From Pseudosulfitobacter pseudonitzschiae (GTDB lineage: Bacteria > Pseudomonadota > Alphaproteobacteria > Rhodobacterales > Rhodobacteraceae): a stretch of DNA of 64,000 bases. Positions 7,371 through 62,686 of the stretch are shown piece after piece (position 1 is the first letter of the stretch; each line of letters opens with the position of its first letter). The stretch lies in contig NZ_FQVP01000003.1 of NCBI RefSeq assembly GCF_900129395.1, positions 186,001 through 250,000 of the forward strand, read 5' to 3'. The notes beneath the pieces are model-generated. The model searched no databases, was not told the DNA's origin, and was given only the letters and a program-made list of their open reading frames with translations. The position numbers were made by a program, and so were the translations under genes.

Positions 7371-7550
7371 GAACCTGTCTTGGCAAGGGCTTCTGAATGA
7401 AGCGTTTTCCAGGATGTGGTTTCAAAGGTCGGGAGGCACTCGGTGGGACGAGGGCCATGAATTGACCGAAACCCAACCATCTCGACTGGGCGGTGTACCG
7501 TGGCCCGACGGTGCGCGCGCTCGCAGAGAATCTGAAAGGTGACAGTTCAC

Positions 7551-25604: not shown

Positions 25605-26780
25605 ATGGGTAAGGCAAAGTTTGAACGTAACAAACCGCACGTGAACATCGGCACAATCGGCCACGTTGACCACGGTAAAACCACGCTGACGGCTGCGATC
25701 ACCAAGTATTTTGGTGACTTCCGCGCGTACGACCAGATCGACGGCGCGCCCGAAGAAAAAGCCCGCGGCATCACCATTTCGACCGCCCACGTCGAATATG
25801 AAACCGAAACCCGCCACTACGCGCACGTCGACTGCCCCGGCCACGCTGACTATGTGAAAAACATGATCACCGGTGCGGCACAGATGGACGGCGCGATCCT
25901 GGTTGTGAACGCAGCCGACGGCCCGATGCCGCAAACCCGCGAGCACATCCTGCTGGGCCGCCAGGTGGGCATCCCCTACATGGTTGTCTACATGAACAAA
26001 GTGGACCAGGTGGACGACGAAGAACTGCTGGAACTGGTGGAAATGGAAATCCGCGAGCTGCTGTCCTCGTACGAGTACCCCGGCGACGACATTCCGATCA
26101 TCCCCGGTTCGGCCCTGGCCGCCATGAACGGCACCGACCCGGAAATCGGCGAAGAGTCGATCAAGAAGCTGATGGCCGCTGTTGACGAGTACATCCCGAC
26201 ACCCGAGCGTGCCGTGGACCAGCCGTTCCTGATGCCCGTCGAAGACGTGTTCTCGATCTCGGGCCGTGGTACCGTTGTGACCGGCCGTATCGAGCGTGGC
26301 GTGATCAACGTGGGCGACGACATCGAAATCGTCGGCATCCGCGACACCAAGAAAACCACCTGCACAGGCGTGGAAATGTTCCGCAAACTGCTGGATCGTG
26401 GTGAAGCTGGTGACAACATCGGCGCCCTGCTGCGCGGCATCGACCGTGAAGGCGTTGAGCGTGGTCAGGTTCTGTGCAAGCCCGGTTCGGTGAACCCGCA
26501 CACCAAGTTCGAAGCCGAAGCCTATATCCTGACCAAGGATGAAGGTGGCCGTCACACGCCGTTCTTCGCGAACTACCGTCCGCAGTTCTACTTCCGGACC
26601 ACAGACGTGACCGGCACCGTGAACCTGCCCGAAGGCACCGAAATGGTTATGCCCGGCGACAACCTGAAGTTTGACGTCGAGCTGATCGCACCGATCGCCA
26701 TGGAGCAGGGCCTGCGCTTTGCGATCCGTGAAGGCGGCCGCACCGTCGGCGCCGGCGTGGTGTCGAAAATCGTCGAATAA
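25605..26780 (+). CDS. tuf: Elongation factor Tu (second, complete copy)
   Basis: 391 residues. [12 protein letters not shown] (G1), [12 protein letters not shown] (G3) and the [11 protein letters not shown] region (G4) identify EF-Tu; domains II and III follow to the VVSKIVE end. Its 3' end, downstream spacer and terminator match the partial copy at the window start apart from one base. A GGAGACC-type SD precedes the ATG. Confidence 0.99.
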
Positions 26781-26823
26781 GATCCTCATGCGGGCCCCGC
26801 GCCCGGATGACATCTGAAACGAA

Positions 26824-26852
26824 AAGGCCGCAGCAATCGCTGCGGCCTTTTT
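26824..26852 (+). terminator. Rho-independent terminator of second tuf copy
   Basis: AAGGCCGCAGC, loop AATC, and its complement (26839-26849) run into five T residues. It is identical in stem and loop to the terminator at 86-115. Confidence 0.92.
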
Positions 26853-30573: not shown

Positions 30574-31449
30574 ATGTTGCGCTCAGGCGTTATCGCGAAA
30601 AAAGTCGGCATGACCCGGCTGTTCATGGAAGACGGCAAACAGATTCCTGTGACCGTTCTCCAGCTCGACAAACTGCAGGTTGTTGCCCAACGCACACCCG
30701 AGAAAGACGGCTATACAGCTGTTCAGCTCGGCGCGGGCACAGCCAAAGTCAAACGCACAAGCCAGGCGATGCGCGGCCACTTTGCCGCCGCTTCGGTTGA
30801 ACCCAAGCGTAAGGTTGCTGAATTCCGTGTTGACCCCGAGGCCATGCTGGCCGTGGGCGAGGAAATCATCGCCGACCATTACTTTGAAGGTCAGTACGTG
30901 GACGTGGCAGGCACATCCATCGGTAAAGGTTTTGCCGGTGCGATGAAGCGTCACAACTTCGGTGGTCTGCGCGCGTCGCACGGTGTTTCGATCTCGCACC
31001 GTTCGCACGGTTCGACAGGCCAGTGTCAGGATCCCGGCAAGGTTTTCAAAGGCAAGAAAATGGCCGGTCACATGGGCGCTGCCCGTGTCACCACGCAAAA
31101 CCTGCAAGTGATCCGCACAGACAGTGCCCGTGGCCTGATCATGGTCAAAGGCGCCGTTCCCGGCTCCAAAGGTGGCTGGGTGACTGTCAAGGACGCGGTC
31201 AAGAAACCGTTCCCGGAAACAGCAATCCTGCCCGCCGCCCTGCGTTCCGCCGCTGACGAAGCTGCAAAAGCAGCCGAAGAAGCAGCCGCCGCAGCAGCAG
31301 CCGAAGCCGAAGCAGAAGCAAAGCGTCTGGCTGAAGAGCAAGCCGCAGCAGAAGCCGAAGCGCTGAAAGCCGCTGAAGCCGAAATCGCAGCCGAAGGTTC
31401 GGACGCCGACAACTCGGACGCCGACGACAAGAAAGAAGGTGACGCATGA
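30574..31449 (+). CDS. rplC: 50S ribosomal protein L3 with extended acidic-alanine tail
   Basis: 291 residues. The first about 215 form a normal L3: the KKVGMTRLF start, [54 protein letters not shown]. Beyond that comes a tail of about 75 residues made mostly of Ala, Glu and Lys (heptad-like [17 protein letters not shown], then [18 protein letters not shown]). Most bacterial L3 proteins are near 210 residues. The tail is helical or coiled-coil in appearance with a disordered acidic end. Related extended L3 proteins may exist in other Rhodobacterales; that is my recollection, unchecked. The stop overlaps the rplD start (ATGA). Confidence 0.96.
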
Positions 31450-32723: not shown

Positions 32724-32843
32724 TTGCCTTTGTTCTTGGTCCAGACATTATTCTTGACCTCTGAGCACTCCAAACGGGGACCTTCGGGGCCCTACAACCA
32801 CGGCGACTTCGGTCGCTGACAAGCAAAACGGAAGACAGCAAAC

Positions 32844-52431: not shown

Positions 52432-52636
52432 CCCTGCGCGGGACAAGGCCGCAGGCCGCCGCGCATCGCCGGGCCGCCCCACGGCACGGCGATTTGGCTG
52501 CTGTGGTGAATAACAGATAGCTTGGAAGTGTTTGGCCGCCATTAAGTGCCAGACACTAAGGGCGGATCGCCGCACCACGGCCCGACGCTGCGCGGCTTTG
52601 CGAACGGCAACTATGTCCGCCGGACTCTCGACGCAG
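52432..52636. repeat. Dispersed intergenic element, copy A (inverted-repeat core)
   Basis: This stretch between rarA and crcB matches 62386-62604 over about 200 bp. The first about 70 bases (from CCCTGCGCGGG) and the 31-base right arm are nearly identical; the middle differs by scattered substitutions and short indels. The core 52458-52596 (139 nt) is bounded by imperfect inverted repeats: the left arm starts GCCGCGCATCGCCGGGCCG and the right arm (52566-52596) is nearly its complement. Each arm may extend to about 30-35 bases. No open frame of interest lies inside. It resembles a MITE-like unit or a structured RNA; no target-site duplication was established. Confidence 0.75.
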
Positions 52637-52767
52637 GGCGAGTAAATGCCTGTATAGGGTCGGATCGGCCTGACACGGCTCGCTGGGAGCCTAAGGCTCT
52701 CCGGCGCACATAATGCGAAAGCCGAGGAAAACTTGACTCTTCCGCGTGGCCGCGCGATGGACGCGCC

Positions 52768-53148
52768 ATGATCTCGACCTTACCCCTCGTTGCCCTCGGC
52801 GGTGCTATCGGTGCCAGCCTGCGCTATTTGTTTGGCGTGGCCGTTATGCGCGTGTTCGGTGCCACCCCGTTCCCCCTTGCGATCATCGGGGTCAACGTCC
52901 TCGGGTCGATCCTGATGGGCGTGTTCGTGGTGGCTGCGGCGCAGCGGGGGCTGACGCATCTGTCGCCTCTGGTGATGACGGGGCTGCTGGGCGGGTTCAC
53001 CACATTTTCCGCCTTTTCGCTGGAAACCGTCGGCCTGATCGAGCGGGGCCAGTATGGCTTTGCCGTGGCCTATGTCACCCTGTCCGTGGGGTGTTCGGTG
53101 CTGGGCCTGATGCTGGGCATGACACTTGCCCGAGGAGCTTTTGTATGA
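52768..53148 (+). CDS. crcB: CrcB/Fluc fluoride ion exporter
   Basis: 126 residues, four membrane helices. The GGAIGASLRYLFG start, INVLGSILMGVF-like VNVLGSILMG, and GLLGGFTTFSAFSLE motif are diagnostic of dual-topology fluoride channels. It expels fluoride passively. No fluoride riboswitch is seen upstream; the preceding gap carries repeat copy A. Its TGA overlaps the ATG of the pseudouridine synthase. Confidence 0.93.
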   Translation: MISTLPLVALGGAIGASLRYLFGVAVMRVFGATPFPLAIIGVNVLGSILMGVFVVAAAQRGLTHLSPLVMTGLLGGFTTFSAFSLETVGLIERGQYGFAVAYVTLSVGCSVLGLMLGMTLARGAFV

Positions 53149-54188
53149 GCCGTGTTCAAACCGTCACCGTGGCCCCCGACGAGGCCGACCAGCGGCTGGA
53201 TCGCTGGATGAAAAAGCGGTTTCCGCAGGTCAGCCAGGGCATGATCGAAAAGTTTTGCCGCAAGGGCGAAATCCGCGTCGACGGCGGGCGCGTGAAATCC
53301 GCCACCCGCCTTGAGGCGGGGCAGACCGTGCGCATTCCGCCGCTGCCCGACGAGGCCGCGCCGGTGATCCAGCGCACGCGCATTTCCGATGCGGACACCA
53401 AGATGATCCAGTCGTGCGTGATCTACCGCGACGACCATGTGATCGCGCTGAACAAGCCCCCCGGGCTGGCCGTCCAAGGCGGGTCGGGTCAGGCGGATCG
53501 CCATGTTGATGCGCTGTCGGATGCGCTGATTTTCGACGCCGAGGAAAAACCGCGTCTGGTGCACCGGCTGGACCGCGACACGTCGGGCGTGCTGTTGCTG
53601 GCGCGCACGCGGCTGGCGGCCAAGGCGCTGACCGCGTCGATGCGCCACCGCGAAACCCGCAAGATTTACTGGGCCATCGTCGCTGGTGTGCCCACGCCCT
53701 ATCTGGGCGAGGTGCGTTACGGGCTGGTCAAGGCCGGCGGTCACGGCAAGGGCGGCGAGGGCGAGAAGATGATCGCCGTGCATCCGCGCGACGTGGACAG
53801 CACACCGGGCGCGAAACGCGCGCACAGCCTTTATGCCACGCTGTTCCGCGTGGGGTCACGTGCGTCCTGGGTGGCGCTGGAACCGATCACCGGCCGCACC
53901 CACCAGCTGCGTGCGCATATGGCCGAAGTGGGTCACCCGATTGTCGGTGACGGCAAATACGGTGGCTCGGGTCAGGAAAACCTGGGCGACGGCTGGGGCG
54001 CGCAACTGGGCGGGATCATCTCGAAAAAACTGCACCTGCACGCGCGGATGATGCGGTTCGAGCATCCGCATACCCGCAAGGTGATCACGATCACGGCGGA
54101 ACTGCCCGACCACATGGCCCACAGCTGGGAGACCTTCGGCTGGACCGAGGATCTGGCGGCAGAAGACCCCTTTGAGTCGTTGCAATGA
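53145..54188 (+). CDS. RluC/RluD-family 23S rRNA pseudouridine synthase
   Basis: 347 residues from MSRVQTVTVAPDEADQRLDR. An S4 RNA-binding domain covers about 14-65. The synthase domain has YRDDHVIALNKPPGLAVQGG and the catalytic Asp143 in HRLDRDTSG, and later PITGRTHQLRAHM. It isomerises uridines in 23S rRNA; RluC is the closest guess because of the S4 domain and its neighbours crcB and HAD, which is common in Rhodobacterales. GAGGAG (53132-53137) fixes the start. Confidence 0.92.
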   Translation: MSRVQTVTVAPDEADQRLDRWMKKRFPQVSQGMIEKFCRKGEIRVDGGRVKSATRLEAGQTVRIPPLPDEAAPVIQRTRISDADTKMIQSCVIYRDDHVIALNKPPGLAVQGGSGQADRHVDALSDALIFDAEEKPRLVHRLDRDTSGVLLLARTRLAAKALTASMRHRETRKIYWAIVAGVPTPYLGEVRYGLVKAGGHGKGGEGEKMIAVHPRDVDSTPGAKRAHSLYATLFRVGSRASWVALEPITGRTHQLRAHMAEVGHPIVGDGKYGGSGQENLGDGWGAQLGGIISKKLHLHARMMRFEHPHTRKVITITAELPDHMAHSWETFGWTEDLAAEDPFESLQ

Positions 54189-54868
54189 CCGCACCGCTGC
54201 GGCTGGTGATATTCGACGTGGACGGCACGCTGGTCGACAGCCAGGGGCATATCGTCGCCTCGATGACCATGGCGTTCAACGCATTGGGCGTAGACGTGCC
54301 CGACCGCGCGGCGATCCTTGGCATTGTGGGGCTGTCGCTGGACGTGGCCATGCCGGTGCTGGCGCCCGCGCTGACCCCGACGCAGCACGCCGCATTGGTG
54401 CAGGGCTACAAGGACAGCTATCGCACGCTGCGACTGGCCCATGGTGCGGCAGAGGCTTCGCCGCTGTATCCCGGCGCGCTTGCGGCGTTGCAAAAGCTCG
54501 CAGCAAGCGATGACATCCTGCTGGGCGTCGCCACCGGCAAATCCAAACGCGGCCTGGATGCGCTGATCGAGGCGCACGGGCTGGAGCGGATGTTCGTCAC
54601 CCGCCAATGTGCGGATTTCCATCCCTCGAAACCGCATCCGTCGATGATCCACACCGCCCTGAGCGAGGCGGGCGTTGACGCGGCCAATGCGGTGATGGTC
54701 GGCGACACCAGCTTTGACATGGACATGGCGCAGGCCGCCGGTGTGGCGGGCATCGGCGTCACCTGGGGCTATCATGCGCCCGAGGCCCTGTCGGCGGCCA
54801 CCCACATCGTGCAGGATTTTGACGCGCTGCACACCACCATTACGACACATTGGAGCCTGCCCGTATGA
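54185..54868 (+). CDS. HAD-superfamily hydrolase, phosphoglycolate-phosphatase-like
   Basis: 227 residues. Motif I is FDVDGTLVDSQG (Asp11 nucleophile, Asp13 acid), followed by a helical cap, motif II in LLGVATGKSKRG, and motif IV VMVGDTSFDMDMAQAAG. It dephosphorylates a small phosphometabolite; Gph-type phosphoglycolate or a sugar phosphate is possible. It overlaps the end of the pseudouridine synthase gene (ATGA). Confidence 0.92.
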   Translation: MTAPLRLVIFDVDGTLVDSQGHIVASMTMAFNALGVDVPDRAAILGIVGLSLDVAMPVLAPALTPTQHAALVQGYKDSYRTLRLAHGAAEASPLYPGALAALQKLAASDDILLGVATGKSKRGLDALIEAHGLERMFVTRQCADFHPSKPHPSMIHTALSEAGVDAANAVMVGDTSFDMDMAQAAGVAGIGVTWGYHAPEALSAATHIVQDFDALHTTITTHWSLPV

Positions 54869-55578
54869 GCGAGTGGAAGCAAAAGAAGTTCTGGACCAAG
54901 TCCGAAGTGACCGAAGCCGAGGGCGGCTTTGGCGTTGCACTGGACGGGCGCGGCGTGAAAACGCCCGCCAAGGCGCCGCTGGTGGTGCCGTCGCGCACTA
55001 TGGCGCAGGCGATTGCCGATGAATGGGCGGCGCAAGAGGGCACCGTCGATCCGATGACCATGCCATTCACCCGCAGCGCCAATGCGGCCATCGACAAGGT
55101 GCGCGTGCAGCACGCCGAAGTGGCCGACCTGGTGGCCGCCTATGGTGACGCTGACCTGTTGTGCTACCGCGCGGCAAGCCCCGAGGGGCTGGTGGCGCGG
55201 CAGGCGGAAAAATGGGACCCGCTGCTGGACTGGGCGCACGTGGCGCTGGGCGTGAGGCTGGTGACACTTCAAGGCGTGATGCACGTGCCGCAAGACCCGC
55301 GCGCGCTGGACACGCTGGTGCGCAAAACCCATGCGCTGGACCCGTTCGAGCTGACCGGTTTTCACGATTTGGTCAGCCTGTCGGGGTCGCTGATCATCGG
55401 TTTCGCGGCCTTGCATGACGCTAGGGCAACCGCTGAGTTGTGGCACCTTTCGCGTCTGGACGAGGAATGGCAGGCCGAATTCTGGGGCAATGACGAAGAG
55501 GCCGACGCCCATGCCGAGATCAAGAAGGCCTCGTTTTTACACGCAAAATCCTTTGTGGATGCCCATCGGGCTGGCTGA
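54865..55578 (+). CDS. ATP12-family F1-ATPase assembly chaperone
   Basis: 237 residues from MSEWKQKKFWTKSEVTEAEG. The VALDGRGVKTPAKAPLVVPS segment, AIADEWAAQEGTVDPMTMPF, and LLCYRAASPEGLVARQAEKW match the ATP12 family. ATP12 helps the alpha subunit of F1 fold in mitochondria and alphaproteobacteria. The ATG overlaps the HAD stop. The four genes crcB to ATP12 are each coupled to the next and probably form one transcript. Confidence 0.93.
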   Translation: MSEWKQKKFWTKSEVTEAEGGFGVALDGRGVKTPAKAPLVVPSRTMAQAIADEWAAQEGTVDPMTMPFTRSANAAIDKVRVQHAEVADLVAAYGDADLLCYRAASPEGLVARQAEKWDPLLDWAHVALGVRLVTLQGVMHVPQDPRALDTLVRKTHALDPFELTGFHDLVSLSGSLIIGFAALHDARATAELWHLSRLDEEWQAEFWGNDEEADAHAEIKKASFLHAKSFVDAHRAG

Positions 55579-55579
55579 A

Positions 55580-55595
55580 TTTGGCGCGCGCCAAA
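55580..55595. promoter_or_regulatory. 16-bp perfect palindrome upstream of bztA
   Basis: TTTGGCGC/GCGCCAAA, a perfect 16-bp palindrome. It begins just after the ATP12 stop and lies 180 bases upstream of bztA. It could be a repressor operator; the symmetry suits a dimeric regulator. Confidence 0.4.
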
Positions 55596-55684
55596 AACAT
55601 GGGCGTCAGGGACCCCTGATCCATCGTTTTCCGTGATCCCACTCTTGACGTACGAAGATGAATCCGACCACACTGACCCTTATC

Positions 55685-55731
55685 GACAGGGGCAAATCCC
55701 TGTCAGTATCGCCTCCGGCTGCAAAAGCCGG
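55685..55731 (+). promoter_or_regulatory. Tandem hairpins in bztA leader
   Basis: GACAGGG-GCAAAT-CCCTGTC (55685-55704) and CCGGCT-GCAAA-AGCCGG (55715-55731) lie 40-90 bases before the bztA start. TTGACG at about 55647-55652 upstream is a possible -35 element, but no good -10 goes with it. They may protect mRNA or sense a metabolite. No known riboswitch consensus was recognised. Confidence 0.4.
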
Positions 55732-55773
55732 TCGAGCCGTCCGAACGGGGCGGAAAATCAGGAAGAGGTAAAA

Positions 55774-56790
55774 ATGAAAAAAACAGCTATTTTTGGTGCA
55801 CTGACCATCGCAGGTCTGGCCGCCGGCGCAGCCGCTGCTGGCACACTTGACGATGTCAAGGCACGCGGAAAACTGAACTGTGGTGTGACAACCGGTCTGG
55901 TGGGTTTTGCGGCCCCCGATGCGAACGGCAAATGGGAAGGCTTTGACGTTGCAGTCTGCCGCGCAGTCGCCGCTGCTGTTCTGGGTGACGGCGACGCCGT
56001 CGAATTCGTTCCGACAACAGGCAAGACACGCTTTACTGCGCTGGCCTCGGGTGAAATCGACGTTCTGGCCCGTAACACCACATGGACCTTCTCGCGCGAT
56101 GTTGACCTGAAGTTCAACTTTATCGGTGTCAACTACTATGACGGCCAGGGCTTCATGGTTCCCAAGGCTCTGGGCGTGTCCTCGGCAAAGGATCTGGACG
56201 GCGCGACCGTTTGTATCCAGACCGGCACAACAACCGAGCTGAACCTGGCGGATTTCTTCCGCACCAACAACATCAACTACGAGCCGGTTCCGATCGAAAC
56301 CAACGCCGAAGCGCAGCAGCAGTACCTTGCCGGTGCCTGTGACGTTTACACGACCGACGCTTCGGGTCTGGCCGCGACACGCGCCACATTCGAGACACCC
56401 GGCGATCACATCCTGCTGCCCGAAATCATCTCGAAAGAGCCGCTGGGCCCGCTGGTCCGTCACGGCGATGACGAGTGGGGCGACGTGGTTGCATGGACCC
56501 TGTACGCACTGATCGCCGCGGAAGAGCTGGGCGTGACCTCGGCCAACGTCGCGGAAATCGGCACCAGCACCAACAACCCCGAGATCAAGCGTCTGCTTGG
56601 CACCGAGGGCACGTTGGGTGAAATGATGGGCGTCGACGCGGACTGGGCTGCCAAAGCCATCGCGGTTGGCGGCAACTATGGTGAAATCTTTGCCAAGAAC
56701 ATCGGTGAAGAAACACCCATCGGTCTGGCCCGTGGCCTGAACGCACAATGGACCAACGGCGGCCTGATCTACGCGCCCCCGTTCCGTTAA
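55774..56790 (+). CDS. bztA: Amino-acid ABC transporter substrate-binding protein (BztA/AapJ type)
   Basis: 338 residues from MKKTAIFGALTIAGLAAGAA (signal peptide, cleavage near AAA/AAG at 20-22). The family start GTLDDVKARGKLNCGVTTGL, GFDVAVCRAVAAAVLGDGDA, RNTTWTFSRDVDLKFNFIGV, and GDDEWGDVVAWTLYALIAAE are distinctive for AapJ/BztA. It captures glutamate, glutamine, aspartate and asparagine in the periplasm and delivers them to BztBCD. The upstream frame to 55633 is leader. A 3' hairpin follows, which would keep the binding protein mRNA more abundant than that of the permeases. Confidence 0.93.
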   Translation: MKKTAIFGALTIAGLAAGAAAAGTLDDVKARGKLNCGVTTGLVGFAAPDANGKWEGFDVAVCRAVAAAVLGDGDAVEFVPTTGKTRFTALASGEIDVLARNTTWTFSRDVDLKFNFIGVNYYDGQGFMVPKALGVSSAKDLDGATVCIQTGTTTELNLADFFRTNNINYEPVPIETNAEAQQQYLAGACDVYTTDASGLAATRATFETPGDHILLPEIISKEPLGPLVRHGDDEWGDVVAWTLYALIAAEELGVTSANVAEIGTSTNNPEIKRLLGTEGTLGEMMGVDADWAAKAIAVGGNYGEIFAKNIGEETPIGLARGLNAQWTNGGLIYAPPFR

Positions 56791-56801
56791 GTTGAAAACG
56801 C

Positions 56802-56831
56802 CGAAGGGCGCGGGTCATACCGCGCCCTTCG
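56802..56831 (+). promoter_or_regulatory. 12-bp hairpin after bztA
   Basis: CGAAGGGCGCGG (56802-56813) and its complement (56820-56831) with loop GTCATA and no T-run. It probably acts as a 3' stabiliser and partial processing or termination point between bztA and bztB. Confidence 0.7.
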
Positions 56832-56931
56832 CGCAATCGGCATGACCATGATGCCAGACTAAAAAATGAACCGGCCGCTATAAGCATCTCAAGATGCACT
56901 GACACAGGCACGGGACACAGGGAACAGTTTC

Positions 56932-58170
56932 ATGACAACACTCACCGACCCCCCCAAGGGTGCGTTCCGGCCATCTATGCTGCTGTACGATTCGCGGTAT
57001 CGGTCGCTGACATTGCAGGCGATTGCGGCCATCGTTCTGGCGTGCTGCTTTTTGTATCTTTATTCCAACCTGGCCGCCAACCTGCGCGCCGCGGGTTTGA
57101 ATATCTCCTACGATTTTCTCGGCAACCCTGCGGGATATGACATCAACCAGACGTTGATCGACTATACCAGCCAGTCCACCAACTGGCGCGCGGCTGTTGT
57201 CGGCATCCTGAACACGCTGCTGGTGGCCTTTCTGGCCTGTGTCACCGCCACGGTCTTTGGCGTGCTGGCAGGTGTCCTGCGGCTGTCGCCCAACTGGCTG
57301 GTGCGCAAGCTGATGGCGTTTTACGTCGAAATCTTCCGCAACATTCCGGTGCTGATCTGGATCATCATCATCTTCACCATCATGACGGCGGTGCTGCCCG
57401 CACCCAGCGCGTTCCGGGGCGAAAATGCCAGCAGTTCGATGTTGTTCGATGCCGTGGCCATGACCAACCGGGGCGTTTACGTGCCCGGCCCCTATTTCAC
57501 GCGGGGCTTTGGTGCCGAGGGCAATGGCGCGCTGAACTGGCTGCTGGTGATCGCGGTGCTGGTCGGATCGCTGATTGCGACACGTATGGTCACCGCCTCG
57601 GCGGATGCAAAACAGGCCGAGACCGGTGTGCGTCCCAAAACGCTGTGGCTGAACCTGGGCATCTGGTTCGTGCCGGTCATCGTGGTGCTGTTCGCGCTGG
57701 GTCTGACGTGGGACTATCCCGCGCTCCAAGGCTTCAACTTTCAGGGTGGCCTGAAAATCGGCGGTCCGCTGATCGCGCTGTGGTTCGCCCTGTCGATCTA
57801 CACCGGTGCCTTTATCGCGGAAAACGTCCGCGCGGGCATTCAGGCGGTGTCCAAGGGCCAGACCGAAGCGGCCGCCGCCCTGGGCCTGCGCCCGCGCCGG
57901 ATCATGGGGCTGGTGGTTCTGCCGCAGGCGCTGCGGGTCATCATCCCGCCGCTGATTTCGCAATACCTGAACATCACCAAGAACTCGTCGCTGGCAATCG
58001 CCGTGGGCTATGCCGACATCACCGCGACGCTGGGCGGGATCACCCTGAACCAGACCGGGCGCGCGATTGAATGCGTGCTGCTGCTGATGCTGTTTTATCT
58101 CGTTATCTCGCTGCTGATCTCGGCGTTCATGAACGTCTACAACAACGCAATGAAGCTGAAGGAGCGTTAA
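56932..58170 (+). CDS. bztB: Amino-acid ABC transporter permease BztB/AapQ
   Basis: 412 residues, longer than most polar amino-acid permeases because of a large periplasmic insertion between helices (about residues 155-275), as is usual for AapQ/BztB. The first membrane helix lies at 25-45. The EAA loop reads SKGQTEAAAALGLRPRRIMG with VVLPQALRVIIPP. It forms the channel with BztC. It starts about 140 bp after bztA. Confidence 0.93.
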   Translation: MTTLTDPPKGAFRPSMLLYDSRYRSLTLQAIAAIVLACCFLYLYSNLAANLRAAGLNISYDFLGNPAGYDINQTLIDYTSQSTNWRAAVVGILNTLLVAFLACVTATVFGVLAGVLRLSPNWLVRKLMAFYVEIFRNIPVLIWIIIIFTIMTAVLPAPSAFRGENASSSMLFDAVAMTNRGVYVPGPYFTRGFGAEGNGALNWLLVIAVLVGSLIATRMVTASADAKQAETGVRPKTLWLNLGIWFVPVIVVLFALGLTWDYPALQGFNFQGGLKIGGPLIALWFALSIYTGAFIAENVRAGIQAVSKGQTEAAAALGLRPRRIMGLVVLPQALRVIIPPLISQYLNITKNSSLAIAVGYADITATLGGITLNQTGRAIECVLLLMLFYLVISLLISAFMNVYNNAMKLKER

Positions 58171-58173
58171 GCC

Positions 58174-59472
58174 ATGTCCGATACACATGCAGAATCCATC
58201 CGCTTTGTGCGTGAAACAACCCTGCCACAGGCCGAGCCGCCTGTGGCCGAACGGGGCATTTACAAATGGGGCCGCGAGAACCTGTTTGCCACGCCCGGCA
58301 ACGCCCTGCTGACGCTGATTGCGCTCTACGTGATCTACGTTGTGCTGTCGGCGGTCCTGCCGTGGCTGCTGAACGGTGTGTGGAACGCAAGCAGCCTGTC
58401 CGAATGCCGCGAGATCCTGGCGGGCGAGACGGGCGGCTGTTTCGCCGTACTGGTCGACCGCTGGCAACAGCTGTTGTTCGGCTTCAAATACCCCTCTGCC
58501 GAATACTGGCGTCCGGCGCTGGCCTTTGTGCTGTTCTTCGTGGCAGCGGCGCCGGTGCTGTTCTTTGACCTGCCGCGCAAGATGCTGGCGTTCACGGCGC
58601 TCTTTCCCTTCCTGGCCTATTGGCTGATCTGGGGCGGTCCGGTTCTGGTGCCGGTCGTCGCGCTGGTTGGTTTCGTGGTGGGCTATCTGGCATACGCCAA
58701 GCTGGTCACGCGCAGCTTTGCGGGCGGCTTTTTTGGCGGCATCGCGGCGGCGGCGGTGACGTGGATCATCGGCGGCTTCATTGTCGACTGGCTGTCCGGC
58801 CCGTCGTCCCTGCTGCGCGCGGTGCCAAGCCGCGATCTGGGCGGGTACATGCTGAACTTTATGCTGGGTGTGACCTGTGTGTCGCTGTCGGTGCCCTTTG
58901 GCATCGCACTGGCACTGGGGCGGCAATCGTCGATGCCGCTGATCAAATGGGTCAGCGTCGTGTTCATCGAATTCATCCGCGGCGTGCCGCTGATCACCTT
59001 GCTGTTCGTGGCAAGCGTGATGCTGGCCTATTTCTTCCCGCCCGACTCGAACGTCGATTTGTTCCTGCGCGTGGTCATCATGATCACCATGTTCTCCTCG
59101 GCCTATATCGCCGAGGTGATCCGGGGTGGTCTGGCGGCCCTGCCCAAGGGCCAATACGAGGCAGCCGACAGTCTGGGGCTGGATTACGCGCAGGCCATGC
59201 GCCTGATCATCCTGCCGCAGGCGCTCAAGATCTCGATCCCCGGCATCGTCAACATCGCGGTGGGCCTGTTCAAGGACACCACGCTGGTTTCGGTGATTTC
59301 CATGTTCGACCTGGTCGGCATGATCCGGGGTCCGATCCTGGCCTCGACCGACTGGAACGGCGTCTACTGGGAACTGCTGGGCTTTGCCGCCTTGCTGTTC
59401 TTTGTCGTCTGTTACGGCATTTCGCAATATTCGCAGTGGCTGGAACGCCGTCTTGCGACAGACCACCGCTAA
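58174..59472 (+). CDS. bztC: Amino-acid ABC transporter permease BztC/AapM
   Basis: 432 residues, also long, with about eight to ten hydrophobic segments. The EAA loop is PKGQYEAADSLGLDYAQAMR with LIILPQALKISIPG. The soluble N-terminus (about 40 residues) precedes the first helix. It starts three bases after bztB. Confidence 0.93.
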   Translation: MSDTHAESIRFVRETTLPQAEPPVAERGIYKWGRENLFATPGNALLTLIALYVIYVVLSAVLPWLLNGVWNASSLSECREILAGETGGCFAVLVDRWQQLLFGFKYPSAEYWRPALAFVLFFVAAAPVLFFDLPRKMLAFTALFPFLAYWLIWGGPVLVPVVALVGFVVGYLAYAKLVTRSFAGGFFGGIAAAAVTWIIGGFIVDWLSGPSSLLRAVPSRDLGGYMLNFMLGVTCVSLSVPFGIALALGRQSSMPLIKWVSVVFIEFIRGVPLITLLFVASVMLAYFFPPDSNVDLFLRVVIMITMFSSAYIAEVIRGGLAALPKGQYEAADSLGLDYAQAMRLIILPQALKISIPGIVNIAVGLFKDTTLVSVISMFDLVGMIRGPILASTDWNGVYWELLGFAALLFFVVCYGISQYSQWLERRLATDHR

Positions 59473-59487
59473 GAGAGAGGTTCAGAC

Positions 59488-60267
59488 ATGACTGAAGCCG
59501 TAAAATCGCCCGCCCAGATGACCGTTTCGGACGAGGTGGCCATTTCCATCCACAAGATGAACAAATGGTATGGCACGTTCCACGTGCTGCGCGACATCGA
59601 CCTGACGGTGAACCGGGGCGAACGCATCGTGATCTGCGGGCCGTCAGGCTCGGGGAAATCGACGCTGATCCGCTGTATCAACGCGCTGGAAGAGCATCAG
59701 AAGGGAACGATCGAAGTCGATGGGACGCTGCTGTCCTCGGATCTGAAGAACATCGACAAGATCCGCTCCGAGGTTGGCATGTGCTTCCAGCACTTCAACC
59801 TGTTCCCGCACCTGACCATTCTGGAAAACTGCACGCTGGCCCCGATCTGGGTGCGCAAGACGCCCAAGAAGGAAGCCGAGGAAATCGCGATGCATTTCTT
59901 GGAAAAGGTGAAAATCCCCGATCAGGCCGACAAATACCCCGGCCAGTTGTCGGGCGGTCAGCAACAGCGTGTGGCCATCGCCCGCAGCCTGTGCATGCGT
60001 CCGCGCATCATGCTGTTCGATGAACCCACATCGGCGCTGGACCCCGAGATGATCAAGGAGGTTCTGGACACCATGATCGAGTTGGCCGAAGAGGGCATGA
60101 CCATGCTCTGCGTGACGCACGAGATGGGCTTTGCCCGTCAGGTGGCGAACCGCGTGATCTTCATGGATCAGGGCCAGATCGTTGAACAGAACGAACCCGA
60201 AGAGTTCTTTAACAACCCGCAATCGCCCCGGACCCAGCTGTTCCTCAGCCAGATCCTCGGGCACTGA
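59488..60267 (+). CDS. bztD: Amino-acid ABC transporter ATPase BztD/AapP
   Basis: 259 residues. Walker [10 protein letters not shown], signature [15 protein letters not shown], Walker [17 protein letters not shown], and His in VTHEMGFA. It drives glutamate/glutamine-type uptake. It starts 15 bases after bztC, completing bztABCD. Confidence 0.97.
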
Positions 60268-60292
60268 GATCCGCGCGCCTTGGGGCGCAGGC

Positions 60293-60784
60293 TCAGATCA
60301 CATCGCTGGGAGTTGCGAAATCCATCGGCTGGCCCTTGTGCCAGCCGATGTCGTTCCAGCCGTCCACATCAAACCGGACCACCAGCGTGGCGCAGGTGGG
60401 ATAGTCGGCGAACCGCAGATGCGCGGGCCGCTTGGCGCACAGCTGCCATGCCATTTCCGCGATGCCGGGATTGTGGCCCAGCATCAGGACCGTGGGCGCG
60501 GTCGCCTTGCGCAACAGGTCCAGCATCGCGTGGCTGTCTTGCAGGTACAGATCGCGCGTGATCGTCGCGGGCACGTCGAAGCCCAACCTGTCAAATGTCT
60601 CGACCGTGCGCGTGGCGGACGACACCAGCGCCGCGTCGGGCAGATGCCCCTGCGCCCGCAGCCAATGGCCCATGGCCGTCGCCCCCTCGCGCCCGCGTGC
60701 GTTCAGCGGGCGATCGTGGTCGTTCAACGTGGCAAGGTTCCAGTCGGATTTGGCATGGCGCATCAGGATCAGGGTGCAGGTCAT
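60293..60784 (-). CDS. SixA-like histidine phosphatase
   Basis: 163 residues. RHAKSDW (9-15, His10 nucleophile), RPLNARGREGA, SSATRTVET, and LGHNPGI mark the SixA branch of the histidine phosphatase superfamily. E. coli SixA dephosphorylates PTS-Ntr NPr. Its ATG overlaps the stop of the ferredoxin-like gene (ATGA), so it is the last of a coupled trio. Confidence 0.9.
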   Translation of the reverse strand: MTCTLILMRHAKSDWNLATLNDHDRPLNARGREGATAMGHWLRAQGHLPDAALVSSATRTVETFDRLGFDVPATITRDLYLQDSHAMLDLLRKATAPTVLMLGHNPGIAEMAWQLCAKRPAHLRFADYPTCATLVVRFDVDGWNDIGWHKGQPMDFATPSDVI

Positions 60785-61395
60785 GTCGGGTGAAAAGCCT
60801 TCATATGGAAATGGGACTGGGCGTCGGGTCGGTCAAAGCTCTGGCTGACGGGACAGGCGCGGCGCACCTTGCAGCCGCGCGTCATGCAATCGGCGCCTGC
60901 GTCGGTTTCCAGAAAGGCCTTGCAGGCGGGCACGTCATAGGGCGGTGTATCGGACAGCGCGCCCACGGGGCAGGCGGCAAGGCAGGGCCTGGCGCAGGTG
61001 TCGCAGGGGCTGGTTGCGTGCGGCGGCGGGAATTCAGGATTGGTGTCAAAGATCAGCGCCCCCCGTATCGAGATCATCATGCCAGCGGTGTCGTGCACCA
61101 TCATGCCCACAGGGCTTTGGAAAAATCGACCCGTGTCCATGGCCCAAGCAATAAACGGCGCATAGGGCGGCCCGTCGGAGGGAAAGGCGGCGGTGGCCCC
61201 GAAAGTTCCGGCCATCGCACCGATGATGCGTTTTGACCAACGGTCCAGCGGGTTCGGGTGCCCGTCGCCGTATTCGGCGCTGGCGGCAAACACCGGCCAA
61301 AAGCCTGCATCACAGCCCACCAGCACGCGGCCCCCGCTGGCCCCCATGACCATCAGCCCGTGCGGCCGACAGGCCTTGGAGATCGCGTCCAGCAT
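60781..61395 (-). CDS. 4Fe-4S ferredoxin-like protein
   Basis: 204 residues from MLDAISKACRPHGLMVMGAS. The C-terminal half has a classic 4Fe-4S motif CDTCARPCLAACP and a second cysteine group (CMTRGCKVRRACP), so two clusters are possible. The N-terminal part resembles the start of epoxyqueuosine-reductase-type proteins only loosely, and the corrinoid-binding parts are missing. Residues upstream of 61395 belong to the desaturase gene. The start overlaps the desaturase stop (TGATG). Confidence 0.8.
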   Translation of the reverse strand: MLDAISKACRPHGLMVMGASGGRVLVGCDAGFWPVFAASAEYGDGHPNPLDRWSKRIIGAMAGTFGATAAFPSDGPPYAPFIAWAMDTGRFFQSPVGMMVHDTAGMMISIRGALIFDTNPEFPPPHATSPCDTCARPCLAACPVGALSDTPPYDVPACKAFLETDAGADCMTRGCKVRRACPVSQSFDRPDAQSHFHMKAFHPT

Positions 61396-62189
61396 CACTT
61401 GCGCAGGAACGGCAAGGCCAGCGACCAGCCAAGGCGGGACGGGCGGTCGTCCTGCCACTGCAGGCCAGTTTGCATCGCGTCATGCCCGTCGCGCGGCTGC
61501 GCGATATAGGTGCCGAACAGGCGGTCCCACAGCGACAGGGAAAAGCCGTAGTTGCTGTCATGCTCTGCGCGGTCCGTTGAATGGTGCACGCGGTGCATGT
61601 CGGGTGTCACCAGCACACGGCGCAGCGGTCGGTCCAGCCACGCGGGCAGGGAAATGTTGGAATGGTTGAACATTGCCGTTCCGTTCAGGATGACCTCGAA
61701 CAGCACCACGGCCAGGGCGGCGGGACCGATCAGATAGACCAGTGCGATTTTCAGCAGCATCGACAGGGCAATCTCCAGCGGATGAAAGCGGATCGCCGTG
61801 GTCACGTCCATGTCGACATCGGCGTGGTGCACCCGGTGCAGACGCCACAGCAGCGGCACCTTGTGTGTCACCAGGTGTTGCGCCCAGATCGCCAGGTCGA
61901 AGATCAGCACCGCCAGCGTGATTTCCAGCCATGCGGGCCAGTCCAGCAGGTTGAACAGCCCCCAGCCGTTGGCCCCCGCATCCACCGCCGCCCCGACGGC
62001 CAGCAGCGGCAGGGCCAGCGCCAGCAGGCGCAGCGTCGCGGTGCTGGCAAGGATGATGCCCCAGTTGGTCACCCAGCGCCCTGTGCGCCCCTGTGCGCGT
62101 GCGCGGCGGGGGATCAGCACCTCGGCCAGCGCCAGCAGGGCGAACAGCCCCAGAAAGACGCCGAGGCGGAGGGTGGTTTCATGTTCCAT
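61395..62189 (-). CDS. Sterol desaturase / fatty-acid hydroxylase-family membrane protein
   Basis: 264 residues with four or five membrane helices and the di-iron histidine boxes HLVTH, HRVHHAD, HSN and HRVHHS. These enzymes hydroxylate or desaturate lipids. The substrate is unknown; ornithine-lipid or hopanoid/carotenoid-type lipids are possibilities. The ferredoxin-like protein encoded next could supply electrons. The repeat copy B lies upstream of it. Confidence 0.93.
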   Translation of the reverse strand: MEHETTLRLGVFLGLFALLALAEVLIPRRARAQGRTGRWVTNWGIILASTATLRLLALALPLLAVGAAVDAGANGWGLFNLLDWPAWLEITLAVLIFDLAIWAQHLVTHKVPLLWRLHRVHHADVDMDVTTAIRFHPLEIALSMLLKIALVYLIGPAALAVVLFEVILNGTAMFNHSNISLPAWLDRPLRRVLVTPDMHRVHHSTDRAEHDSNYGFSLSLWDRLFGTYIAQPRDGHDAMQTGLQWQDDRPSRLGWSLALPFLRK

Positions 62190-62385
62190 GTACCGTTGGT
62201 AGCGCCGCGCGACGCGCCTGCCAAGCGGCGGCGCGTCACATCGGCGTCAGTTTCAGATATCAAGCAAAACCGACTTTTGCGACAGAGCACTGACCCAAGG
62301 TGCGGCGCTGCGTCCGTAGAGCGGGGGCCAAGCGTTTATTCGTGAAAAATGCAGCGAACGGCAGGATTGAGCCCTTTCCACAATC

Positions 62386-62604
62386 CCCTGCGCGGGATCA
62401 AGGCCGCAGGCCGCCGCGCATCGCCGGGCCGTCCGCCGGCACGGCGATTTGGCTACTGTTGTGTTCCACGGATAGCTCGAATGTGCTTGGCTGCCATAAA
62501 GTGCCAGTCACAGAAGTCGGATCGCCGCACCACGGCCCGACGATGCGCGGCTTAGCACTACATTTCAAACGGCAGGAAAGTCCGCTCACCAGACGTTGAC
62601 GCAG
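62386..62604. repeat. Dispersed intergenic element, copy B (inverted-repeat core)
   Basis: Second copy of the element at 52432-52636. Its 139-nt core (62413-62551) has the left arm GCCGCGCATCGCCGGGCCG and the right arm (62521-62551), whose complement starts GCCGCGCATCGTCGGGCCG, a match of 18 of 19. The intergenic space here (62190-62686) otherwise shows no gene. The two copies lie about 10 kb apart and in the same orientation. Confidence 0.75.
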
Positions 62605-62686
62605 ATTAGACCGAAGGTCCGGTTCGGTCAAATATGTTTGGCAACCGGGTCAGCTTTGCACGACTGACGACAGTCAGGGACGGATG

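Follow-up and report, generated by a model that had tools for sequence, protein, structure and literature searches.

Populations of repetitive extragenic palindromic (REP) sequences and of REPINs, in which such palindromes are paired, are thought to depend on one domesticated transposase. REPINs were defined as inverted palindrome doublets by Bertels and Rainey (2011; PMC3116915), in whose account they take both of two folds, a long hairpin and a clover. The two intergenic stretches analyzed here lie in a 64,000-nt window (the whole piece of DNA under study, to which all coordinates refer) of contig NZ_FQVP01000003.1 of Pseudosulfitobacter pseudonitzschiae, and both probably belong to a REPIN-type family of interspersed, non-autonomous DNA repeats. 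This we take to be the best reading, ahead of a regulatory RNA linked to particular genes. Below, G000 denotes the genome of the window and G001 to G005 others of the same genus; G-numbers stand for genomes and L-numbers for fetched loci.

Like REPINs, the element has an inverted pair of palindromes, a spacer of kept length, a hairpin or clover fold and compensatory changes; it is extragenic, reaches tens to more than 100 copies per genome with few or none in G002, G003 and G005, and has solo forms with one palindrome only (L024, L025 and L090). Unlike them, it adds a 5' hairpin and a conserved apical motif in a core of 162 nt and is spread over 81 of the 198 genera sampled, and no RAYT/Y1 gene was found in 31 of 36 carriers, the fetched Y1 loci being devoid of the element. 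No REP tetranucleotide tag (GTAG or CGTC) was noticed at either end in alignments inspected by eye. By build and placement we file the element as of REPIN kind, but outside the REPIN/RAYT system, since the test for the transposase that defines this system was mostly negative. In the open-licence literature we recognized no description of this element; HRC-8-4, an RNA candidate restricted to Rhodobacterales, is placed mainly between cco operons in the description given in PMC8632094.

Build, fold and spread of the element

Of the direct repeats reported in the window, the longest joins 52444-52601 to 62399-62556 (158 nt ungapped, 85% identity), and no open reading frame (ORF) of at least 100 amino acids from the window scan overlaps either core, as expected from the initial annotation, made from the letters alone, of two similar stretches without an open frame. 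The imperfect inverted-repeat ends that it had described are likewise in place and beyond chance: if up to 3 mismatches are allowed, the arm GCCGCGCATCGCCGGGCCG occurs five times in the window against 0.24 expected, a number reached by 0 of 100 shuffles. It is exact at 52458 and 62413, its complement occupies 52578-52596 (2 mismatches) and 62533-62551 (1 mismatch), and the fifth occurrence, with 3 mismatches, is at 30759. The 139-nt core proposed at the outset does lie inside the conserved core, but was drawn too short: alignment with other copies resets the borders to 161 nt in copy 1 and 162 nt in copy 2 (Table 1), and the hairpin that opens the core, H1 (GCGCGG, bulge, inner stem, CCGCGC), which overlaps the left arm of that proposal, had been taken for flank. 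Of the supposedly shared flank AAAACCG, the copy 2 instance belongs to the left end of a 422-bp unit described below, and copy 1, by eye, matches the same end over a shorter stretch. When the two copies are folded as RNA, either strand is more stable than 200 of 200 shuffles (z -3.0 to -4.8), as expected of any long inverted repeat.

The build can be read as two inverted copies of a palindrome of about 36 nt (arms a and b, and the reverse complement of arm c) around a near-fixed spacer, with H1 added at the 5' side; a single strand could form either one long hairpin, with a-c2 and b-c1 pairing, or a clover of hairpins. We examined this in 102 subfamily 1 copies, drawn from 37 genomes of 34 genera and aligned with MAFFT blind to structure. 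The copies were collected with the covariance model R1, by a search of 96 sources picked among the fetched loci; several G000 copies and all loci of a second subfamily were left out. The set thus depends on a model of the element, and relatedness within it is controlled for only in part. By corrected mutual information, 39-148 in stem P1 (arm a with c2) ranks first, and the first 15 pairs include 37-150, 53-139 in P2 (b with c1), 3-28 in H1, 43-144, 55-137 and 38-149. Also among them are 51-141, 51-148 and 39-51, which are not long-hairpin pairs or belong to the a-b hairpin, indicating that the arms vary in threes.

Cells with double changes number 90 in P1 (shuffle mean 18), 44 in P2 (7), 17 in P0 (2), 10 in H1 (0.4), 13 in inner H1 (1.6) and 52 in a-b (10); with one copy per genome the counts are 25 (3.4), 11 (1.3), 7 (0.7), 5 (0.2), 4 (0.5) and 13 (2) in the same order. 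None of 500 shuffles reached the count of any of these stems, and a control with slid partners gave less pairing, which bears out the early impression that compensating changes keep the arms paired. Some pairs, mostly or often mismatched, were dropped from P1 and P2 (35-152, Watson-Crick in 51 of 102 copies; 51-141, in 46; 52-140, in 27) and from a-b (38-52, in 41 of 102). In P3, which adjoins the apex, pairing across the 102 copies was not above shuffles. In 95 of 102 copies, arms a-b match the reverse complement of arm c better than any of 200 shuffles does; at consensus level, a 5-nt loop gap and two letters distinguish the two. H1 and P0 share the strand CCGCGC and arm a pairs with b or with c2; the long hairpin and the clover of small hairpins are therefore alternatives.

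Core length stays within 160-167 nt in 94 of 102 copies, the rest having 170, 201 or, with an insert, 185-189 nt. The H1 bulge reads GAATCA in 53 of the 102, and in the apical part TTGGC..ATAAAG is largely conserved while most other letters vary between genera. Among the variants, arm a of L018-L023 and L025 carries a 26-nt hairpin, similar ones occurring in L129 and L138 from other genera, and L027, L029 and L192 are remnants consisting of H1 and little else.

A second subfamily, found beside a truncated copy, has different letters and the same plan: H1 with the bulge AGTCA or AATCA, arm a, arm b, the apical ATAAAG and an arm c pairing with a. BLAST gives 31 matching pieces of it in G000, 49 in G001, 36 in G004 and 14 in G005. 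R1, a model made from 44 copies without this subfamily (and without L009, L021 and L047, whose bulge is changed), matches 24 of 24 of its loci end to end (positions 1-162; 36-84 bits; E 8e-5 to 9e-14), of which only the 21 scoring above 50 bits are telling; up to that score R1 also matches the wrong strand of subfamily 1 copies, because the element is self-complementary. The length is 160 nt in 23 of 27 copies, and the inner H1 stem switches within the subfamily between GGTGC/GCACC and GGCAC/GTGCC.

The element is dispersed, as first proposed. BLAST with copy 1 returns 34 matching pieces in G000, ruling out a mere local duplication, and R1 gives (E<=1e-5) 35 matches in G000, 44 in G001, 53 in G004, 4 in G005, 3 in G002, 0 in G003, 27 in G202 and 120 in G155; these totals cover both subfamilies, and a few may be reverse-strand matches of one copy. 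Among the 23 of the 35 G000 matches listed, all are of subfamily 1. The two outcomes that would have spoken against a dispersed element, an absence of further copies and a local duplication only, are thus both contradicted by copies in this genome and in its relatives. In a survey with one genome per genus, at least 81 of 198 Rhodobacteraceae genomes hold an R1 match (E<=1e-4), and in a class-wide sample at least 3 of 385 do, all three in Rhodobacteraceae; with 14 and 7 candidates scored per genome, respectively, under strict filters, the counts are lower bounds and absence holds at that sensitivity only. One 36-nt BLAST match in another family (G060) lies in sequence that by eye looks protein coding (L043). 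An exact-pattern scan of named genomes gave 63 stretches under titles that include Sulfitobacter, Pseudosulfitobacter, Roseovarius, Sediminimonas, Lentibacter, Roseicyclus, Thalassococcus, Mesobacterium, Nioella, Ruegeria and Roseinatronobacter, all of which we take to be Rhodobacteraceae in the wide sense.

Plasmids carry the element in 96 records, 91 of them from Pseudosulfitobacter. The G000 contig C28 (79.7 kb) is rich in both subfamilies, with 9 places including partial ones, and a Pseudosulfitobacter plasmid of similar size has 6. Carriage by phages was considered and dropped, a search of a phage collection having given no match.

Placement, insertion and the IS110 landing site

The copies lie between genes. 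In 113 rows, which amount to 112 places as L052 and L128 are one place counted twice, 59 spacers are convergent, 42 tandem and 5 divergent, 7 are at edges and none is inside a gene, against 6 convergent, 40 tandem and 6 divergent among other spacers of the window (n=52). The 63 named copies, a sample overlapping the other genome sets, divide into 25 convergent, 20 tandem, 8 divergent, 10 at edges and 0 in genes. Orientation in tandem spacers is even, with 21 sense and 21 antisense (2 and 5 in G000, 19 and 16 in other genomes) and, in the named sample, 11 and 9 relative to the gene. Genes were called by codon usage, checked by eye on the window. This placement is REP-like, at 3' ends, and weighs against a directional element of the mRNA.

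Presence differs between close relatives. At the copy 1 locus the flanking genes nearly abut in G002, G003 and G005, the spacer of G004 measures 312 bp and contains a subfamily 2 element on the opposite strand, and that of G001 measures 948 bp and is of different sequence. The insert that holds copy 2 is absent in six of six relatives searched; comparison with the orthologous spacers of G001 to G005 delimits a 422-bp insertion flanked by GTCAG repeats (Table 1), and the empty sites advocated at the outset as a check for target duplications thus reveal a 5-bp duplication on both sides of this unit. Its ends recur in the genus, the left as the 24-nt TGTCAGTTGCCAAGCAAAACCGAC and the right partly complementary to the left. 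Such left ends stand beside TniQ-like frames in L322 and L323 (G001, intact) and L324 (G004, broken), twice next to a 524-residue ORF in G001, of which the one tested matches TniQ (PF06527, E=3e-16); in L318 (G004) and L319 the left end follows directly on a tRNA-Arg gene. No complete transposon was seen around the TniQ frames, and by eye no further tni gene was recognized among the gene calls. At one place, orthologous by eye, the frame formed by these ends differs in content: G005 has subfamily 1 in it, G004 has subfamily 2, and G000 and G001 have neither. Judged from these recurring ends, the TniQ neighbors and the variable content of a shared frame, copy 2 arrived as cargo, inside a larger unit whose ends are transposon-like, and some other copies of the genus likewise.

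In G155, where 40 of the 120 matches were fetched, the shared unit is a different one, exactly 239 nt long in 28 of the 40 and with inverted ends TTTTGGCCTGGAGCGGACGTT and AACGTCCGCTCCAGGCCAAAA that are imperfect in most copies. L338 and L356, with poor ends, were left out of the duplication and flank tests. Among the remaining 38 copies no target duplication was found at the unit edges, no offset giving more than 2 at 5 nt; the test covers G155, and older copies could have lost a duplication. Insertion at hairpin tips was discarded as a rule, as the complementarity score between the outer flanks of a copy (n=38) averages 5.5 against 6.3 when shuffled, 1988 of 2000 shuffles being at or above the observed value; L348, with one striking palindromic flank, is an exception. 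The flanks of the G155 units (L325-L364) appear in two kinds, with complementarity within copies below shuffled, as if a larger repeat held the unit in either orientation. Sequence shared beyond the core is also seen among recent copies in G202 and G066, about 25 nt on its left side and 35-45 nt on its right.

H1 is also used by another mobile element. A 1153-bp insertion sequence (IS) of the IS110 family (PF01548, PF02371) occurs in G001 as 18 near-identical copies and once, at 97%, in G000, and 17 of these 19 sit at identical bases in the H1 bulge, between AATCAAG and CAAGG, in nine cases in subfamily 1 (one an H1-only remnant) and in eight in subfamily 2; the other two lie elsewhere, at the same short core. 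The site count refers to these 19 close copies, more distant relatives having 38-53% identity. The loci concerned are L009, L047, L073, L081, L186, L187 and L192-L208 (G000 and G001), and L021 retains a short remnant of the IS110 end without the IS. Insertion of IS110-family elements in REPs is known in Pseudomonas and Sinorhizobium, and the survey of Tobes and Pareja (2006, PMC1525189) names IS621, for which there is experimental evidence, ISPpu9, ISPpu10, ISPa11 and ISRm19. As in those cases, one IS110-family IS hits one exact position of a palindromic intergenic repeat; unlike them, the target here is a hairpin bulge, AATCAAGG, common to two repeat subfamilies with otherwise different letters.

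Weighing the explanations

On the REPIN-type reading, the form that spreads within genomes would be a folded single strand, acted on by an enzyme whose gene lies elsewhere, and the element would survive mainly by landing where harm is small, at the 3' ends of genes. Several results weigh against it. The Y1/RAYT domain PF01797 is absent in 12 of 12 carriers of a first set and in 19 of 24 multi-copy carriers; it is present in G020, G127, G128, G155 and G215, as well as in G012, which has one weak R1 match. G155, with the highest count of matches, nevertheless does have one Y1 gene. None of 12 loci fetched around Y1 genes has an R1 match, and a repeat driven by RAYT as such was accordingly rejected. 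Clustering of 458 predicted neighbor proteins yielded, in the 25 largest clusters viewed, IS110 as the only repeated mobile gene, the other recurring neighbors being ordinary large families; as this IS110 inserts into copies, a recurring neighbor gene was rejected as mobilizer. The polarity of copy 1, insertion or loss, rests on inference. The outer frames vary between genera, and the moving unit is thus not one fixed thing. The ATAAAG motif and the near-constant length seem to exceed what a mere spacer needs, and the conservation of the stems could come from an RNA function.

This last point leads to the reading that the element is a conserved structured RNA, a small RNA or an element of 3' untranslated regions, multi-copy by chance, its fold selected for protein binding or regulation. 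Compensatory changes and constant length would fit, as would the apical TTGGC..ATAAAG, the closeness of copies to gene 3' ends and a G.T run in P3 on the plus strand (TTTGG/TCGGA; 323 G.T against 5 A.C cells). The P3 pairing, however, is the one not above shuffles, and the sign of the wobble is opposite in the other stems (30 against 80 in P0 and P1; 13 against 103 in P2, 90 of them in two mismatch columns); with signs mixed in this way, calling the folded strand from wobble pairs was given up. Against an RNA also stand the even sense and antisense counts, the gain and loss of copies between close relatives, and Rfam, which has no match above threshold to the element in the window and 10 loci, another search giving only a chance-level mir-2788 (17 bits, E=0.82, gathering threshold 62). 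We consider this explanation unlikely. The initial annotation had left the choice between a MITE-like element and a structured RNA; on the RNA side the conserved fold stands, and a regulatory RNA is not favored, there being no Rfam match above threshold, no bias of orientation relative to tandem genes, no linked gene family in the clusters viewed and only mixed signs from the wobble pairs.

The other half of that choice fares well as regards dispersal, since copy number, presence and absence and spread are those of a mobile-like repeat, and a strict miniature inverted-repeat transposable element (MITE) fits the outer unit of copy 2 but not the core. The element shares with MITEs such as Correia/NEMIS, ERIC and RUP, as tabulated in PMC2229807, the size class, inverted repeats, intergenic location and long stem-loops; it departs from them in the G155 unit edges without duplication, in arms that are complementary in threes and in the core having no parent transposon found. 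The specific proposal is a MITE of a DDE transposon family (Tn7/Tn5053-like, linked to TniQ). The outer unit of copy 2 has both the terminal inverted repeats like those beside TniQ, including left ends that adjoin the G001 frame, and the 5-bp duplications, and for this unit the proposal stands. For the core in general it was rejected: the same ends occur beside few copies of the genus (left 5 and right 2 of 28, with 0 and 1 in control windows) and beside 0 of 85 elsewhere, the G155 units lack a target duplication, and one and the same frame, its orthology judged by eye, holds either subfamily or neither depending on the genome. As an account of the whole family we think it very unlikely.

Even less probable, in our view, is kinship with the CcrM-associated intergenic repeats (CIRs) of Caulobacter and Brucella, the element being kept for its GANTC methylation site. 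CIRs, as outlined in PMC2229807, are two-armed intergenic palindromic repeats of alphaproteobacteria, about 110 bp long, with GANTC in one hairpin, and the H1 bulge here has GANTC in 26 of 27 subfamily 2 copies (N being A in 15, G in 6 and T in 5) and in 63 of 102 subfamily 1 copies. The remaining 39 of subfamily 1 lack it, however, and N is A in 56 of the 63; as the reason for conservation, GANTC is weak in subfamily 1 and does better in subfamily 2. The length differs, the site lies at the terminal loop in CIRs and in a bulge here, and R1 finds nothing outside Rhodobacteraceae in the class sample (7 candidates scored per genome). The element is set apart from CIRs by that published description and not by sequence.

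Features of the window and implications

The positions of both copies and their parts are collected in Table 1. Elsewhere in the window, 1-114 and 26738-26852 form a direct repeat (49 and 65 identical nt, offset by one base, 26.7 kb apart) that finishes in a hairpin with a T run and is possibly, at a guess, the 3' ends of a duplicated gene. Known Rfam families are represented by Rhodo-rpoB RNA and the L2-Alphaproteobacteria leader (7426-7519, 32776-32841).

Table 1. Positions of the two copies of the element and of their parts in the window
Feature	Position	Strand	Remarks
Copy 1, core element	52436..52596	+	161 nt; model R1 match G000:C22:238436-238596, 171.5 bits
Copy 1, 5' hairpin H1	52436..52464	+	outer pairs GCGCGG/CCGCGC, inner GGCC-GCA-GGCC
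Copy 1, conserved apical motif	52541..52546	+	here ATTAAG
Copy 2, core element	62390..62551	+	162 nt; model R1 match, 182 bits
Copy 2, 5' hairpin H1	62390..62419	+	bulge GGATCA; IS110 landing site in other copies
Copy 2, arm a	62413..62431	+	pairs with arm c2 (P0/P1), alternatively with arm b
Copy 2, arm b	62438..62448	+	pairs with c1 (P2)
Copy 2, conserved apical motif ATAAAG	62496..62501	+	inside TTGGCTGCCATAAAGTGCC
Copy 2, arm c1	62521..62527	+	pairs with arm b
Copy 2, arm c2	62533..62551	+	pairs with arm a
Copy 2, inserted unit of 422 bp holding the core	62251..62672	+	ends TTTCAGATATCAAGCAAAACCG and TTTGCACGACTGACGACA, like ends beside TniQ genes
Copy 2, left target duplication GTCAG	62246..62250	.	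empty sites in relatives
Copy 2, right target duplication GTCAG	62673..62677	.	empty sites in relatives

Beyond the two copies, a broader proposal is that REPIN-like elements disperse themselves throughout the family by means of an enzyme other than RAYT/Y1, with a core consisting of the H1 bulge and ATAAAG that a protein or RNA would recognize across the 34 aligned genera (81 with matches) while the letters of the stems drift; this we put forward tentatively, at somewhat less than an even chance. With REPIN-shaped repeats in 81 of 198 genera, mostly without a RAYT, the question of what moves REPs becomes testable in a tractable group, and genomes with around a hundred copies could be used for mapping intermediates. 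The IS110 element, with 17 of its 19 close copies in one hairpin bulge, is a natural target for bridge-RNA analysis. Intergenic comparisons and searches for RNA motifs in Rhodobacteraceae will, moreover, keep hitting this element.

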